A stretch of 35,680 nucleotides of DNA from Tissierellia bacterium (GTDB lineage Bacteria; Bacillota; Clostridia; Tissierellales; Sedimentibacteraceae): the NCBI GenBank assembly GCA_012843025.1, contig DURT01000021.1, forward strand, positions 1 through 35,680, given 5' to 3'. The notes below the pieces were generated by a model. The model was not told where the DNA came from and ran no database searches. It was given only the letters and a program-made list of their open reading frames with translations. Both the position numbers and the translations under genes were made by a program. Shown here piece by piece: positions 11,527 through 17,437 of this stretch. How positions within the stretch are numbered: the stretch's first letter is position 1; the number at the start of each line of letters is the position of its first letter.

Positions 11527-13332
11527 GTGTACAAATACATCCTACAAAACATGAGTATGTTTAAAAGAATTTTAGTTCTTTTATTGACTCTTTTATTAGT
11601 TCTTTCTGTTACTGCATGTCAACAGGCTGGGCCAGAAGATGAAAACCAGCAGGAAGAACAGGAGGAACCTGCTGATCAAGTAAGTGGTGTTTTTGAAGGT
11701 GAAGGTAAGGGTAAATATGGTACTTTTAAGGTAGAAGTTACTTTGGAAAATTCAGAAATAAAGGATATTAAGGTTATAGAAAATAATGAATCAGGTTTTA
11801 CTGAACCTGTAATTGAACAATTAATTAATGAAATTATTGCATCAAATTCAGTAGAAATAGATGCAATAACGGGTGCTACTTTGACTAGTGCGGCGGTAAG
11901 AACCAGTGTTACTGATGCAATTAAAAAAGCTAATGTAGAGTTGGTAGCTAAGGAAGTTACGGTTGAAGAAGAAAAAGTTGAAGATGTAACCACTGATATA
12001 GTAATTGTTGGTGCTGGTGGTGCAGGCTTGTCAGCCGCCATTGAAGCAACTAATAATGGAGCAAATGTTATAGTAGTTGAGAAGATGGCATTCATGGGCG
12101 GAAATACCAACTACGCTACAGGTGGAATGAATGCTGCAGGCACTAAGTATCAGGAAGCCTTAGGTATAGAAGACAGCCCTGAATTGTTCTATCAAGATAC
12201 AATGAAAGGCGGTCATAACAAAAATGACCCTGAGTTATTAAAATACTTTACGGAAAAATCGGCAGAAACTATTTATTGGTTAGAATCATTGGGGGCAGAT
12301 TTGTCTGAAGTTGGAAGATCAGGTGGTCAAAGCGTTAACAGAATTCACAAAGGCCCTGGTGGAATGCCCATAGGTACCCATTTGATGGATGTATTTTCAA
12401 ACCAGGTTAAAGAATTAGGAATAGATGTAAGATTAAATACCAAGGCTATTGAAATCTTGGCAGAAGGTAATAAAGTTACCGGCATTAAAGTAGAGAACAA
12501 AGACGGAAATACATACAATATTAATGCCAAGGCTGTTATTTTAGCATCCGGCGGTTTCGGTGCAAATCCGGAGTTAGTTGAAAAATACAAACCTTCATTA
12601 AAAGGCTTTGGAACAACCAATCAACCTGGTGCCACTGGAGATGCACTATTAATGGTGGAAAAATTAGATGTTGCTTTAACTGACATTGAACAAATTCAAA
12701 CCCACCCCACAGTTGTTCCTTTCTATAATGAAATGATAACAGAAGGTATAAGGGGTGACGGTGCAATCCTTGTAAACCGTGATGCAAAAAGATTTATAAA
12801 TGAGCTTGAAACAAGAGACGTTGTTTCAGAAGCTATATTGGATCAAGAAGAAGGAACTGCCTTCCTAGTTCTTGACACAACGGTATTTGAAAAAGCTTCC
12901 ACTTACGCAAAATATAAAGATCAGGGATTTTTGAAAGAAGCTCAAACTTTAAAGGAATTAGCTGAGTTAATAGGAATAGACCCGGACATTCTTGAACAAA
13001 CAGTTGCTGATTACAACAGCTATGTAAGAGAAAAACTTGATCCGGACTTTGGCAGAACTTCTTTGGATGTAGAATTAACAACTGGACCATTCTACTATGT
13101 TGAAATAGCTCCTGCTATTCACCACACCATGGGTGGTGTTAAAATTAACACCAATTGTGAAGTAATTAATAATTCTGGTGAAGTTGTAGAAGGGCTCTAT
13201 GCTGCAGGAGAAGTTACAGGTGGAGTTCATGGAGCTAACAGAATTGGAGGAAATGCAGTTGCAGATATAACTATCTTCGGAAGAACTGCAGGTGCAAATG
13301 CAGCTGCAGCTGTAAAAGGATACTTGAAGTAA
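11527..13332 (+). CDS. Secreted lipoprotein FMN-binding/FAD fumarate reductase-type flavoprotein
   Basis: The 601-residue protein begins with a lipoprotein signal peptide: charged MFKR, a Leu-rich core and lipobox VTAC with Cys31, then an acidic linker. Residues about 52-135 are an FMN_bind domain whose DAITGAT motif (112-118) fits covalent FMN attachment at Thr118 by an ApbE transferase. Residues about 155-600 are the FAD_binding_2 reductase, with GAGGAG at 162-167. Its His393, Glu406, Arg409, Arg430, His532 and Arg572 have the same spacing as the six active-site residues I recall for Shewanella flavocytochrome c3, including the catalytic arginine. So a working fumarate-type reductase outside the membrane is likely; related 2-enoate reductases remain possible. 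No haem motif is present. The start is GTG: AAGGAG lies 7 bases before it, while the in-frame ATGs downstream have no ribosome binding site. Its 3' end overlaps the opposing DUF2812 gene. Confidence 0.93.
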   Translation: MYKYILQNMSMFKRILVLLLTLLLVLSVTACQQAGPEDENQQEEQEEPADQVSGVFEGEGKGKYGTFKVEVTLENSEIKDIKVIENNESGFTEPVIEQLINEIIASNSVEIDAITGATLTSAAVRTSVTDAIKKANVELVAKEVTVEEEKVEDVTTDIVIVGAGGAGLSAAIEATNNGANVIVVEKMAFMGGNTNYATGGMNAAGTKYQEALGIEDSPELFYQDTMKGGHNKNDPELLKYFTEKSAETIYWLESLGADLSEVGRSGGQSVNRIHKGPGGMPIGTHLMDVFSNQVKELGIDVRLNTKAIEILAEGNKVTGIKVENKDGNTYNINAKAVILASGGFGANPELVEKYKPSLKGFGTTNQPGATGDALLMVEKLDVALTDIEQIQTHPTVVPFYNEMITEGIRGDGAILVNRDAKRFINELETRDVVSEAILDQEEGTAFLVLDTTVFEKASTYAKYKDQGFLKEAQTLKELAELIGIDPDILEQTVADYNSYVREKLDPDFGRTSLDVELTTGPFYYVEIAPAIHHTMGGVKINTNCEVINNSGEVVEGLYAAGEVTGGVHGANRIGGNAVADITIFGRTAGANAAAAVKGYLK

Positions 13333-14423
13333 ATAACTTTGTTACCTGAGGATGCGAAGATTAATTTAGTATTTTCCCTTCCTCCAACATAGAGCTGGTC
13401 AAATACATTGTTCATATCTTCATTATCTAAGGTGTACCAATCGTAGCGATATTCTCTATAGTATCGGTGAATTAAATCATTTACAAGGCCTTCAGCCATA
13501 GATTTGAAGGTTAATTCATAATACCTAATATGTAGGCTGGCCTGGCTATAAGCTCCACTGAAATCTTCTTGCATTATACCTTCAACATAACCATCTTCGT
13601 AAATAGTATACTGAATAGGAGCAAGTATACTCCAATTATATTGTATGTCGTGATAATAGTCCAAGATTTTGGTATTCTCTACTTCTTCTATAGTAGGTAT
13701 GGGAAAATCCTGTAACCTTTCTTTTGATATATATCCTTCCCTCTTAATAGCTGTATAAAAAGGTGTAAGGATGGATGCCAATACCATTACAATCAAGGAA
13801 ATATATACTGTTGAAGAAAAGAAATAGCTTAATTTCCAACTTTGCTTATGATTTATTGGGATGCCGTTATAAAGAGAATTCTTGATTCTTTTAACTGCTA
13901 TAAAGCTTCGTATCGAAGCAAATAGTACATAAGTATAACCAATTGCCATTGCAATTAAATTGAAAGAACTTCGACGTATTAAGTTCAAGTAAGGCTCTTT
14001 GTCAAAGAAAAAAACATAGAATAATATAGATAGCACTAATATTGCTGCAATCGAAAAAATTATTGTATTCTTTTTAATTTCCTTGTTAAGAAGATCAAAT
14101 GTAAATCCTTGTTCCATGGGGTCAGTATGGAGTTCTGGTGCATTTGAATTTTCTGGAGAAGAGAATATATAAAATATATCCTTATTGGTGGTTAGCTCCC
14201 AGCCACATTCCTTGTATACATCAAGCTGTTCCTGGGTAGGAGGCTGGTACAAAATATCAATTCTGTACCTGGTATTTTGAGGCTCTCCTTTTTCAAATGT
14301 TACTAACCACTTACCAATAGATTTTATGTGGAGCCCTTTGGATGCCATATGTTCAAACCAGCTTTCGTTTTTGCCAAGCTCCCATAAATCACTTAGTTGA
14401 AATCTATATCTTAGTTTATTCAT
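13227..14423 (-). CDS. DUF2812 membrane protein; last ~34 residues read antisense to the neighbouring reductase
   Basis: The N-terminus (YRFQLSDLWELGKNESWFEHMASKGLHI, then FEKGEPQNTRYRIDI) is the DUF2812 domain, which is usually encoded beside a PadR regulator. Three hydrophobic segments follow (about residues 120-140, 155-177, 198-222), then a hydrophilic C-terminal domain. Function is unknown; such proteins are membrane partners of PadR-type regulators. The gene overlaps the PadR gene by 8 bases, so the two are translationally coupled. Oddly, after SGNKVIYFKY the frame continues into the opposite strand of the reductase gene, giving an Ala/Pro-rich tail (TAAAAFAPAVLPK and on) that looks like antisense translation rather than evolved protein. 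The natural 3' end and stop codon appear to have been lost near 13333. There is no terminator between the convergent genes. The body of the gene is intact, but the tail may affect folding. Confidence 0.8.
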   Translation of the reverse strand: MNKLRYRFQLSDLWELGKNESWFEHMASKGLHIKSIGKWLVTFEKGEPQNTRYRIDILYQPPTQEQLDVYKECGWELTTNKDIFYIFSSPENSNAPELHTDPMEQGFTFDLLNKEIKKNTIIFSIAAILVLSILFYVFFFDKEPYLNLIRRSSFNLIAMAIGYTYVLFASIRSFIAVKRIKNSLYNGIPINHKQSWKLSYFFSSTVYISLIVMVLASILTPFYTAIKREGYISKERLQDFPIPTIEEVENTKILDYYHDIQYNWSILAPIQYTIYEDGYVEGIMQEDFSGAYSQASLHIRYYELTFKSMAEGLVNDLIHRYYREYRYDWYTLDNEDMNNVFDQLYVGGRENTKLIFASSGNKVIYFKYPFTAAAAFAPAVLPKIVISATAFPPILLAP

Positions 14424-14733
14424 TGTGTCCCTCCTTAATAATTGCTCCGTCCCTTACCATACTTAATAGCCTTTCATATTCCTTTTTTAAGGCATTAAGG
14501 CCATCTTCTGTAATGGCGTATGTCTTTCTCCTGCCATCATTATCGACAACAACAATCAACTCATCTTTTTCAAGCCTCGATAAAACACCGTATAGGGTAC
14601 CTGGTCCCATTTTTACACGACCTTTTGATACTTCTTCTATTTCATTCATCAGTTGATAACCATGATTAGGATGCACTAATGCTAAGAGTACATAGTACAT
14701 TGCCTCGGTCATTGGACCACCTTCATAGGGCAT
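14416..14733 (-). CDS. PadR-family transcriptional regulator
   Basis: The 105-residue protein is a short PadR-type winged-helix repressor. The pattern is clear: EAMYYVLLALVHPNHGYQLMNEIEEVSKGRVKMGPGTLYGVLSRLEKDELI contains the helix-turn-helix and wing, and the C-terminal helix (DGLNALKKEYERLLSMV) serves dimerisation. It begins an operon with the DUF2812 gene and overlaps it by 8 bases. A 36-base palindrome covers the region from the -10 box to the ribosome binding site just upstream, which strongly suggests that the protein represses its own operon. AGGAAG precedes the ATG. The inducer is unknown; PadR proteins often respond to phenolic compounds or antibiotics, but the DUF2812-linked group is little characterised. 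Confidence 0.93.
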   Translation of the reverse strand: MPYEGGPMTEAMYYVLLALVHPNHGYQLMNEIEEVSKGRVKMGPGTLYGVLSRLEKDELIVVVDNDGRRKTYAITEDGLNALKKEYERLLSMVRDGAIIKEGHNE

Positions 14734-14744
14734 ACAATCACTTC

Positions 14745-14780
14745 CTATTATGTATTACGATATATCGCATGACATAATAG
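14745..14780. promoter_or_regulatory. Palindromic operator, probably bound by the PadR regulator
   Basis: Perfect 9-base arms CTATTATGT (14745-14753) and ACATAATAG (14772-14780) are exactly symmetric about a central perfect palindrome CGATATATCG (14758-14767). The spacing of ATGT and ACAT fits known PadR-type operators. One arm overlaps the -10 box of the regulator gene and the other touches its ribosome binding site. Confidence 0.75.
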
Positions 14781-14805
14781 TAGCATATTAGTATGTATAA
14801 ATCAA
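14777..14805 (-). promoter_or_regulatory. Promoter of the padR-DUF2812 operon
   Basis: On the minus strand TTGATT and TACTAT are 17 bases apart, with TGC before the -10 box giving an extended -10 element. The -10 box overlaps the upstream arm of the palindromic operator, so a bound repressor would block polymerase. Confidence 0.6.
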
Positions 14806-14840
14806 TAAAAAACTACCTTGTGTTTAATAAAGGTAGTTTA
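14806..14840 (-). terminator. Rho-independent terminator after the CsaA-like gene
   Basis: On the minus strand AACTACCTT and AAGGTAGTT pair perfectly around a 10-base loop and are followed by TTTTTT. This ends the CsaA-like transcript just before the PadR promoter. Confidence 0.85.
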
Positions 14841-14845
14841 TATTC

Positions 14846-15175
14846 TTATCCTAATTTATCGCCTTTTTCTACTGGTCTTTCTGGTTGAATTAATACGACG
14901 CCATCCTTTGAGTAAGTTCCTAAAACTAAAACTTCAGACATAAAATCAGCAATCTGTCTCGGTGGGAAATTTACAACGGCAAGAACTTGTTTTCCTATTA
15001 AATCGTTAATACTATATAAATCAGTAATTTGTGCGCTGGATTTTTTTATTCCTATTTCTTCTCCAAAATCAACAAGGAGCTTATAAGCAGGTTTTCTTGC
15101 CTTCTCAAAAACCTCTGCTTTTATTATTTCTCCCACTCTAATATCTATCTTAGCAAAATCATCAAATGTAACCAT
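14846..15175 (-). CDS. csaA: CsaA-like tRNA-binding domain protein
   Basis: The whole 109-residue protein is one tRNA-binding (EMAP/Trbp111-like OB-fold) domain. It starts with [20 protein letters not shown] and contains [46 protein letters not shown] and the C-terminal [12 protein letters not shown], which together are the hallmark of CsaA. CsaA of Bacillus subtilis binds as a dimer to tRNA or peptides and was described as a chaperone linked to protein export. The length matches that family exactly. AAGGAG precedes the ATG. It stands alone, with a terminator after it. The cellular role of this family is still debated; the family assignment itself is firm. Confidence 0.92.
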
Positions 15176-15242: not shown

Positions 15243-16736
15243 TTAATTCCATTTATCTTTGTTGCTTTCTAATAAGTCCCTGTTTCTTTCGATTGTTAAG
15301 TTATAGCTTTGCCATTTATTTTCCATGTCCATGTACAATTCGCTAATATTTTTTAAATAATTTATTGTTTTATTTCGTGTAATTATTTCTACATCGTCGT
15401 GGGTCAGCCTTATTAATTGGGGCAATGCATCCTGGGATAAAGTCATTAGGTAGTCTATATCAATTTCTTCTGCCTGTCCATTTAAATACATATCAATATT
15501 TCTTTTAGCAATTATTTCATCAATCTTTACAACATTAAGAGTTAGATAAAAAGTAAGTCCAATAGCAGCATATATTGTTAATATATTAAAATTATGCTTA
15601 ATAATATAAACAAAAGTTGCTATTAAACCAATTGCTTCAAATACCAGGAAAATATATACCAAGACTCTTAATCTTGTAAATCCGTAAGCGCTGTCGTAAA
15701 GTGACATTCTGTAATATGAAGATACCAGCAGTATACCTGTTATAACACAAAGGTAAATGAGCATTAGCTTTGTAAATATGGCCCACCTATTTTTGTCTTT
15801 ATAAATTTGGTCTCTCAACAAGTAAGTAGTTATAAGTATTAAACCTAGGTTTAATATGCTTAGAAATACAAGTTCAAAGAAACCACGTCTTGCATATTCA
15901 GAAAAACTAAGACCATGAGGGAGGATACCGCCGGAAAAAAGATATTTAAACTGTATTACAACAAAAATCGAATAAACAAATAATACTGACATAATCAGTA
16001 TATTGAAAACTATTATATCCCCTTTAATTTTGTTGGTGGCAATAGTTTCATCCTTAAGAATATTTACTAAACTATTTGTATCTTTTTTTAAAACAGAATA
16101 TAAATGGGAAAAAAGATAAAAGCCTGCAAATGTTCCAACTATTATTTTAAATATATTTATATATTCAAATAACTTTTTAATCCAATTGTTAAATAGAATA
16201 AAGTTATTGTAAAATACCAAGTCTGCTGAAGACAGCATCTTAATGAGGAAAATAACGGAAGGCACTGATAGGGCAACACCTATTAATATTCTTTTAGCTA
16301 AAATGTGATCATTCTTTTTTCTTCCTTCTGCCATCCACTTAAATGGAACTATAAAATTAATAATGGGTTCAAAAATATTAACAATAGTTTTCAAAATTTC
16401 GAATATATTTAATTTCATTAAATTTAATTTATTTCCCAACATCAAAAACATACTACTGTACAAAAATACTATTACCAGAAAATTTGTGGGCATCATCATG
16501 TAACTGGCACTAAGAAAATTATTTAAGGATATTATGAAAATCGGTAATAGCATGAATAACCCTTTAACGTTTATAACTTCTTTATTATTCTTAGTAATAT
16601 AAAGTAATATTGCAAATTGAATAATAAAAAATATGGGAGCACTTATTCCTGGATTATCAGTCAAAATTAAATATATAAAAGTTATTGCGGAAATAATTCC
16701 GTAAAATGATAATTCTGATTTATTTCTCTGCTCCAT
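15243..16736 (-). CDS. DUF4173-type polytopic membrane protein
   Basis: A 497-residue integral membrane protein with about a dozen hydrophobic segments across the first 400 residues, which look like the DUF4173/DUF4153 family. The C-terminal 100 residues are hydrophilic, with EEIDIDYLMTLSQDALPQLIRLT, a segment seen at the end of such proteins. Function is unknown. The ATG used here has GGAGG six bases before it; an ATG seven codons further upstream would place the start inside the regulator gene without a good ribosome binding site. The start lies within the 3' end of the YozG-like gene (17-base overlap), so expression is coupled to it. It is the last gene of the three-gene operon with DUF2975 and the regulator, and no terminator was recognised after it. 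Confidence 0.82.
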   Translation of the reverse strand: MEQRNKSELSFYGIISAITFIYLILTDNPGISAPIFFIIQFAILLYITKNNKEVINVKGLFMLLPIFIISLNNFLSASYMMMPTNFLVIVFLYSSMFLMLGNKLNLMKLNIFEILKTIVNIFEPIINFIVPFKWMAEGRKKNDHILAKRILIGVALSVPSVIFLIKMLSSADLVFYNNFILFNNWIKKLFEYINIFKIIVGTFAGFYLFSHLYSVLKKDTNSLVNILKDETIATNKIKGDIIVFNILIMSVLFVYSIFVVIQFKYLFSGGILPHGLSFSEYARRGFFELVFLSILNLGLILITTYLLRDQIYKDKNRWAIFTKLMLIYLCVITGILLVSSYYRMSLYDSAYGFTRLRVLVYIFLVFEAIGLIATFVYIIKHNFNILTIYAAIGLTFYLTLNVVKIDEIIAKRNIDMYLNGQAEEIDIDYLMTLSQDALPQLIRLTHDDVEIITRNKTINYLKNISELYMDMENKWQSYNLTIERNRDLLESNKDKWN

Positions 16737-16944
16737 CTTCGTCCTCCACATATTCAATAATATCTCCCGGTTGACAATCTAAAGCTTTGCATATTTCGTT
16801 TAAAGTTGTAAGCCGGATTGCTTTTGCCTTGTTATTTTTTAATATTGATAAATTAGCAGGTGTAATATTAATTTTTTCAGCTAACTCCATAAGTCCGATT
16901 TTTCTTTTTGCCATCATAACATCTAACTGTATAATTATAGCCAT
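16720..16944 (-). CDS. YozG-like small XRE/Cro helix-turn-helix regulator
   Basis: About 74 residues that are almost entirely one HTH_3/Cro-type DNA-binding domain: MAKRKIGLMELAEKINITPANLSILKNNKAKAIRL, followed by LNEICKALDCQPGDIIEY and a short acidic tail. Two ATG codons stand side by side; the second is used because AGGGGG is then six bases away and because the family usually starts MAII. In Bacillus subtilis the homologous pair yoaS-yozG also joins a DUF2975 membrane protein to this kind of small regulator, as seen here. The DUF2975 stop lies just ahead, inside the ribosome binding site. It probably controls its own operon. Confidence 0.9.
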   Translation of the reverse strand: MAIIIQLDVMMAKRKIGLMELAEKINITPANLSILKNNKAKAIRLTTLNEICKALDCQPGDIIEYVEDEDGAEK

Positions 16945-16954
16945 CATACACCCC

Positions 16955-17407
16955 CTATACCGTTAAATCATTTTCGTCTTTGTAGTAAATAGATTGCTTG
17001 AATAGGTCTTTTAATGTTAAACACAATAAACATGCTACAATAAATATAACTATTATAACAATTGTTGAAATAGTAGGCATAACAATCATTTTTACTATAT
17101 AAATAATTGAAATTGCCAAACAAGCTAAAGCAATTTTTCTTAAGCATGAAACGTTTGAATGGATAAAGGGATTACCTTTCATAAGAGTTTTAAATATTAC
17201 CTTTAGCTGCCACAAAATATAAATACATGAGATACCCGAAGCCAATAATACTGCTTTAGCGAAAAAGGCACTTGACTCTACTATTCCAAAGTAACGGAAT
17301 AGCCAAGGGGAAGAAAATGGCACTAAAATACAACATATTATTGCAATGAAAAACAAAATGTCTATGCTTACTTTAGTCATATAGTGAATCATGCTTTTCT
17401 GATACAT
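16955..17407 (-). CDS. DUF2975 membrane protein (YoaS-like)
   Basis: A 150-residue protein with four hydrophobic helices (about residues 14-33, 45-66, 87-107, 115-136), the layout of DUF2975. The KGNPFIHSNVSCLRKIA segment between helices two and three is a family landmark. Function is unknown, but it is regularly encoded next to a YozG-type regulator, as here, and so may sense a membrane or envelope signal. The start chosen is ATG with GGAGG five bases upstream; a TTG four codons earlier is part of that ribosome binding site. It is the first gene after a near-perfect promoter, so it may be strongly expressed unless repressed. Confidence 0.88.
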   Translation of the reverse strand: MYQKSMIHYMTKVSIDILFFIAIICCILVPFSSPWLFRYFGIVESSAFFAKAVLLASGISCIYILWQLKVIFKTLMKGNPFIHSNVSCLRKIALACLAISIIYIVKMIVMPTISTIVIIVIFIVACLLCLTLKDLFKQSIYYKDENDLTV

Positions 17408-17437
17408 AAGAACCTCCAATAGTTATTTCGTAGTTTT

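Follow-up and report, generated by a model that had tools for sequence, protein, structure and literature searches.

We studied a putative two-gene operon in the window, the whole 35,680-bp stretch of Tissierellia bacterium DNA analyzed here. The first gene, padR (14416..14733, negative strand), encodes a small PadR protein of 105 amino acids, a predicted repressor, and the start of the second gene (13227..14423, negative strand), encoding a DUF2812 membrane protein of 398 amino acids, overlaps the end of padR. Along the padR strand the upstream region presented a -35 hexamer TTGATT (14805-14800, 4/6 consensus letters), 17 bp, a -10 hexamer TACTAT (14782-14777) extended by a TG at 14785-14784, a 34-bp palindromic operator that overlaps the -10 hexamer with one arm (see below), the ribosome-binding site AGGAAG of padR (14746-14741) and the ATG start codon (14733). 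An inverted repeat, AAACTACCTT/AAGGTAGTTT, with a loop of 10 followed by a T-run (14810..14839, negative strand), is likely the terminator of the upstream gene for a tRNA-binding-domain protein (14846-15175), and its terminator-like T-run leads into the padR -35 box; the hairpin was missing from our terminator scan, which had a loop limit of 8. An adjoining cluster on the same strand as the padR cluster (15243-17419) contained, according to Pfam, a DUF4153 gene (15243-16757), a gene for a Cro/C1-type HTH_26 protein (16720-16947) and a DUF2975 gene (16955-17419), i.e., a second set of membrane protein and small regulator. The DUF2812 gene also overlaps by 106 bases (13227-13332) the end of a convergent FAD-binding/FMN-binding gene (11527-13332, positive strand).

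The padR product matched PF03551 with 59.5 bits (E 3.3e-16, cut-off 27), and its winged-helix model (mean pLDDT 87.8) had helices at residues 10-18, 25-35, 44-56 and 76-99 and strands at 60-65 and 70-74. The PadR domain, the length of 105 amino acids and the winged helix with a single C-terminal helix are those of a small PadR (subfamily 2). The model aligned to cdPadR1 (Z 12.1, 2.3 Å) and to LmrR chains (Z about 11, 2.2-3.4 Å). Since hsRosR and MarR-type regulators scored as high as the PadR chains, the family name was taken from Pfam and not from the fold; no structural paper on hsRosR was found among the matches listed in our literature search. The recognition helix in the model is helix 3 of the winged helix, residues 44-56. 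Two residues set the window's PadR group apart from 59 other regulators of padR-DUF2812 pairs: R53, present in 84 of 84 members of the group versus 6 of the others, and M42, present in 83 of 84 versus 1 of 59.

The partner had PF11193 as its sole Pfam match (E 2.9e-21). In its model (mean pLDDT 88.1) an N-terminal alpha/beta domain of two beta-alpha-beta-beta units, modelled as E-H-E-E-E-H-E-E, is followed by three long helices and a C-terminal domain; the hydropathy profile displayed two clear helices (around residues 116-143 and 198-227) and a weak C-terminal tail. The order of the N-terminal domain may resemble that of GyrI/SHS2 domains. A Foldseek search with the whole model gave no match below E 0.05. 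The C-terminal domain (residues 239-392) aligned over 131-132 residues to the soluble domains of mycobacterial TiME with a middling Z of 9.2, and it is possible, judging from the model, that it is a sensor domain. An alignment of the same domain to DcrB, also middling, had a Z of 7.1. We also noted a strongly conserved motif, APELHTDP-EQ, at residues 95-105, where the N-terminal domain joins the first long helix, and an alanine/proline-rich, weakly hydrophobic stretch of low model confidence formed by the last 30 residues, which fell outside the tblastn matches seen at the 12 loci of the reverse search described below.

DUF2812 was found in 65 of the 398 Bacillota genomes sampled. We read 70 DUF2812 loci, part of the places found (30 + 40), with local HMM searches in which ambiguous residues X were read as A. 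A padR gene was recognized by the local profile in 62 of them and not in 8, one of which was only 600 bases long, and in 61 of the 62 loci the DUF2812 profile match lay behind padR on the same strand. A literature search, outside which most subscription journals fall, gave no paper that mentions both PadR and DUF2812.

The operator was described initially as an exactly symmetric 36-base element. The 36-mer (14745..14780, a feature without strand) is an imperfect palindrome: its outer arms, CTATTATGT at 14745-14753 and ACATAATAG at 14772-14780, and the inner block CGATATATCG at 14758-14767 do have one axis in common, between 14762 and 14763, as had been proposed, but letter by letter 15 of the 18 mirrored pairs match, the exceptions being arm positions 10, 11 and 13. 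The conserved core within it is a 34-mer (14746..14779, negative strand), TATTATGTCATGCGATA followed by TATCGTAATACATAATA on the padR strand, to which an outer C/G pair is added in the 36-mer. Within the window the 36-mer was the top-ranking 18-pair palindrome, and with a matrix built without the window copy the operator scored 50.7 bits, and nowhere else in the window did the score exceed -13.3. When 200 first-order Markov copies of the window were generated, 7 contained an equal or better 18-pair palindrome, a mean of 0.035 per copy; the point in favour of a chance palindrome is that about 0.035 equally good ones are expected per random window. Palindrome quality alone is moderate evidence against chance, and conservation elsewhere removes chance.

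That conservation was evaluated upstream of the padR genes most similar to that of the window. The preliminary description had named a palindrome not conserved upstream of orthologous padR genes as the observation that would speak against it; instead, the operator was located upstream of padR in all 80 loci compared (the best 80 of 161 PadR relatives, selected by PadR similarity, 60-91% identity; by title, Bacillota and one Arthrobacter), with a lowest score of 25.4 bits in a symmetrised matrix derived from these sites. Among the best 8 listed of 1576 background windows, five were true operators whose loci had a left flank that was short; another window, scoring 17.1, lay at the operator of locus L051, and the next best scored -7.6. 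The 80 loci and the window provided 81 sites, 77 of them distinct, in which 25 of the 34 positions had one base in at least 71 sites; the more variable positions were 8, 9, 11, 12 and 23-27. A chance palindrome is refuted by this conservation. Taken together with the origin of the element in the end of a mobile element, the idea is extremely improbable: besides the 80 of 80 loci, the register on the promoter is fixed and one copy was present in each of 13 genomes (see below), and the pattern had no exact match in a viral contig collection.

Within the genus, a survey of 25 genomes gave 28 padR matches in 17 of them. The window gene and four relatives (77-91% identity) carry the operator with at least 49.2 bits. 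Of the 23 more distant matches, 22 could be scored and the operator was absent from all of these, the best score being -1.5; the remaining one, L007 (74% identity across residues 22-105), lacked an upstream stretch suitable for scoring. A different palindrome of the same size, TATATTGATAATRGATATATCRAATATMGATAYA, was observed upstream of padR in L008, L010, L011, L012 and L019, and slightly changed in L009; it keeps the central TATATC/GATATA frame, and these loci are among the more distant PadR relatives in the genus.

The link between operator and gene pair was also recovered from DNA only. The pattern TATTATGYNNNNCGATATATCGNNNNRCATAATA, searched with at most 2 mismatches in the 398 Bacillota genomes, matched in 13 genomes, at one site in each, and the control pattern read backwards gave 0 matches. 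In the 12 genomes other than that of the window, the site was always directly upstream of a padR gene with DUF2812 behind it, the PadR proteins being 57-73% identical to that of the window, so that the operator is tied to padR-DUF2812. The further genomic sites that were to be searched for to define a regulon did not appear: the window genome presented one site with at most 3 mismatches, and the predicted regulon is therefore the padR-DUF2812 operon itself.

Binding of PadR to the site is predicted only, which leaves room for another regulator that recognizes the site and happens to control padR-DUF2812 operons. We consider this quite improbable, as the site follows the window's PadR subgroup through Bacillota and into one Arthrobacter record, and the more distant PadR relatives scored in the same genus lack it. 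At the stringency of the search, the 13 matched genomes with one site each revealed no other regulon, and where a padR-DUF2812 regulator has another recognition helix, the letters of the site are also different, within a related frame. The operator type of the window occurred in 3 of the 62 padR-DUF2812 loci and the others had different operators; in 35 of the 62 promoters the palindrome was better than those in 30 shuffles.

Alignment of the 81 loci on the operator indicated that its register is fixed on a promoter of the form TTGACA-N17-TANTAT. With spacers of 16-18 bp allowed, the best -35 was at the 17-bp spacer in 74 of the 81 loci, and 5 or 6 of the six TTGACA letters were present in 70; TANTAT was found at the -10 register in 71, overlapping the first three operator bases. 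The mean -35 match was 5.3, versus 2.6 in shuffled flanks and 2.4 in displaced windows. The overlap of the outer arm with the extended -10 box, pointed out in the preliminary description, is thus a property of the family, and comprises 3 bases of the core or 4 of the 36-mer in the window. The promoter-side arm has C or T at position 9 in 75 of 81 sites and A at position 10 in 75 of 81, a preference that the far arm does not have. Transcription usually starts seven bases past the -10 hexamer, where A10 is situated; with this A (14770, negative strand) as the predicted start, chosen by the base preference in the family, the operator would span -9 to +25.

The second overlap, between the other arm and AGGAAG, amounts in the window to 1 base of the core or 2 of the 36-mer, but it is not a conserved feature: the distance between the operator end and the start codon ranged from 11 to 141 nt (median 28; at most 14 nt in 7 of the 81 loci), with homologue start codons extrapolated from the alignment to the window PadR (the extrapolated codon is not a start codon in L107 and L109), and the overlap is consequently taken as incidental. 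These data bear on a reading in which the palindrome forms a hairpin in the leader RNA and acts by attenuation or by masking of the ribosome-binding site. The arm does touch AGGAAG in the window, and the fold had -10.6 kcal/mol (z -2.28), a value equalled or bettered by 6 of 200 shuffled sequences. Nevertheless, the varying distance of 11-141 nt speaks against the hairpin, and with the predicted start at arm position 10 most of the left arm would be untranscribed. Moreover, mirrored positions hardly covary among the 81 sites, their agreement being about that obtained after shuffling the far arms among loci, so a DNA element is favoured and we hold the hairpin to be very improbable. The exception was position 6 (T/C), which agreed in 72 of 81 sites versus 67.2 after shuffling (sd 1.4), covariation of the kind that a shared protein preference would give; agreement at position 9 (21 versus 15.6) was 1.8 sd high.

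The 34-mer can be read, which the preliminary description had not noted, as two overlapping 19-bp sites, each matching on inspection 11 of the 14 letters of a template TATATCG-N5-CGATATA: predicted PadR dimer site 1, TATTATG-N5-CGATATA (14761..14779, negative strand), which overlaps the -10 hexamer and the predicted start point, and predicted dimer site 2, TATATCG-N5-CATAATA (14746..14764, negative strand), offset by 15 bp, the central TATA being common to both. The half-sites of the window family are not alike, TATTATG on the outside and TATATCG on the inside, so that the 19-bp sites are weak palindromes, and a template-free search for half-axes gave several weak centres and no single dimer centre. 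At least two sites in a 15-bp step were present in 80 of the 81 promoters of the family, and at least three in 14 of these; as conservation of the 34-mer already entails this pair, it does not count as independent evidence.

Further data came from 58 other padR-DUF2812 promoters, each with at least 100 bases upstream, inspected with the template at a threshold of at least 10 of 14 letters. As these promoters had been seen before the template was chosen, it can miss padR genes that use other letters. A 19-bp site was present in 56 of the 58, versus 7.3 in shuffles, and two or more sites in a 15-bp step in 32 (23 with two, 7 with three, 1 with four and 1 with five). The control was made of padR promoters from the same phylum for which the stretch read contained no DUF2812 (60 of the best-scoring padR places listed, a few places skipped; 59 scored). 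Stepped sites occurred in 1 of these 59, and any 19-bp site in only 22, so that the fair comparison, restricted to promoters with a site, is 32 of 56 versus 1 of 22. Of the 141 sites in the 58 padR-DUF2812 promoters, 49 had a neighbour at +15, versus 2.1 expected with flanks shuffled, and the overlap in the central TATA therefore does not explain the stepping. The 15-bp pair was not found in 26 of the 58 promoters at the template threshold, and a 13-bp pair occurred in 9 loci and a 22-bp pair in 6; hence, 15 bp is the main, not the sole, spacing.

The longest stepped arrays upstream of padR, all in exact 15-bp steps, were those of L153 (five sites), L138 (four) and L142 (three). The padR genes of L206 and L209 had two TATATAG-N5-CTATATA sites per promoter, 27 and 25 bp apart, respectively, which correspond to the same 19-bp frame, although both the letters and the spacing are different. 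A single 19-bp frame may be a general geometry of small PadR proteins, in line with the TACT-N11/12-AGTA site given for cdPadR1 in the available text of PMC5050560. Among the matches listed in the literature search, nothing relevant was found on stepped operators.

The most likely occupancy would be two PadR dimers, one on each 19-bp site. A rather unlikely variant of the same autorepression is a single dimer on the central CGATATATCG, with the outer TATTATG arms contacted by the wings or representing promoter sequence. One dimer per site is the simplest case for a small winged-helix repressor, and no fully conserved block is longer than the central 10 bp, which in the window copy form a perfect palindrome. 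Yet the far arm (positions 28-34), which has no promoter role, is nearly as conserved as the promoter-side arm, stand-alone sites in other padR-DUF2812 promoters, such as TATATCGGTTAACGATATA in L137, have their symmetry axis in the N5 centre, and the cdPadR1 site, as presented in the parts of PMC5050560 available, has the geometry of TATA-N11-TATA. A further arrangement, two ATGT-N8-ATAT boxes offset by 10 bp, was set aside: two dimers would share one groove, and it is the 15-bp frame that recurs elsewhere.

Comparison with known systems was based on the available portions of the papers cited. LmrR of Lactococcus lactis, a small PadR (PadR-s2), binds the lmrCD operator as two dimers by measurement (PMC5428041) and is autoregulated (PMC4534193); the window PadR resembles it as a small winged-helix PadR and in its predicted autoregulation. 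The LmrR box is ATGT-N8/10-ACAT (N10 in lmrCD), whereas the window has ATGT-N18-ACAT with CGATATATCG in between; the canonical PadR box ATGT-N8-ACAT was rejected for the window and was present in none of the 62 padR-DUF2812 promoters and none of the 59 other padR promoters. In addition, the target of LmrR is a drug pump, and drugs stack on a tryptophan of its C-terminal helix that is described as highly conserved (PMC3506622), while the window PadR has a DUF2812 partner and no tryptophan in its 105-residue translation. The lack of this residue speaks against LmrR-type drug sensing, and a drug-binding PadR of that kind was discarded as a candidate.

For cdPadR1 of Clostridioides difficile, fragments of 21 and 30 bp with one TACT-N11/12-AGTA each and a single stoichiometry were reported, together with 200 candidate genomic sites from a scan set to 200 (PMC5050560, as far as its available text goes). 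The letters of that site differ from those of the window, and its 200 listed candidates, a number to which the scan was set, contrast with the one genomic site found here. Its spacing resembles the TATA-N11-TATA of the window, and TACT-N11/12-AGTA itself was present in 0 of the 62 padR-DUF2812 promoters and 2 of the 59 other padR promoters. A search for the operator motif strings together with PadR, outside which most subscription journals fall, gave nothing relevant by title among the matches listed. Two dimers on one palindrome have been described for IdeR, on opposite helix faces (PMC8464063, in its available part), and for QacR and DtxR (named in the available text of PMC5428041); these regulators belong to unrelated families and the likeness is one of architecture only.

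Similar in gene arrangement are LltR and LstR of Listeria and the HAAS-PadR pairs, in which a stand-alone PadR has a membrane partner that may carry the signal. In Listeria the lltR operon, with the DUF1700 protein lmo0600, was up more than 100-fold in the mutant, and such regulators were called autoregulatory (PMC6624303); HAAS-PadR pairs have been proposed as an alternative to two-component systems (PMC11237479), both according to the accessible sections of these papers, in which no operator sequence is given for them. Their partners have DUF1700/HAAS three-helix domains, whereas the N-terminal domain of DUF2812 is modelled as two beta-alpha-beta-beta units; relative to a HAAS-PadR dyad, the window locus has the PadR neighbour, and the HAAS three-helix fold is absent from the partner by Pfam and by the model. 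That the membrane partner is constant suggests a role of DUF2812 as carrier of the signal, in line with the proposal made for the HAAS-PadR pairs in the part of PMC11237479 available.

A conserved operator thus lies over the promoter of padR itself, as in an autoregulated operon, and the palindrome is very probably the operator through which PadR represses the padR-DUF2812 operon. The preliminary description had called the locus a clear case of self-repression; that wording holds for the comparative evidence (80 of 80 loci, 12 of 12 genomes and the fixed -10 overlap) and goes no further, repression itself being what we infer. PadR would bind the 34-bp element over the 3' half of the -10 hexamer and the predicted start, and the bound protein would block promoter opening and silence padR and the DUF2812 gene. 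With two dimers, the first would cover the edge of the -10 hexamer and the start point and the second the early transcribed region; their centres would be 15 bp apart, about 1.4 turns or about 154 degrees at 10.5 bp per turn, and for this reason they would sit on roughly opposite faces of the helix. Most likely, although this is a guess from gene order, the DUF2812 protein would sense an envelope signal and free or retain PadR. The outcome would be a self-limiting switch acting on the padR-DUF2812 operon alone.

A broader proposal, which we put forward tentatively and regard as possible rather than probable, is that PadR-DUF2812 is a widespread and undescribed pair for membrane signalling. Its operators would be chains of 19-bp dimer sites that overlap and follow one another at exactly 15 bp, with two sites here and up to five elsewhere. 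The dimers would wrap the promoter in a stepped spiral, the number of steps would set the sharpness of the switch, and the N-terminal domain of DUF2812 would strip PadR from the DNA upon an envelope signal.

What comparison of these sequences adds as new is the fixed promoter register, the predicted one-site regulon and the 15-bp stepped architecture of putative sites in many padR-DUF2812 operons. For a subgroup of a regulator-membrane protein pair, they provide a concrete recognition sequence and a promoter layout. The near-invariant recognition helix and operator of the window's group, together with the other letters in a related frame used by other padR-DUF2812 regulators, constitute a natural data set from which a PadR recognition code could be derived. 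The 15-bp stepping, in turn, is a specific and testable prediction on how small PadR proteins would assemble on DNA.
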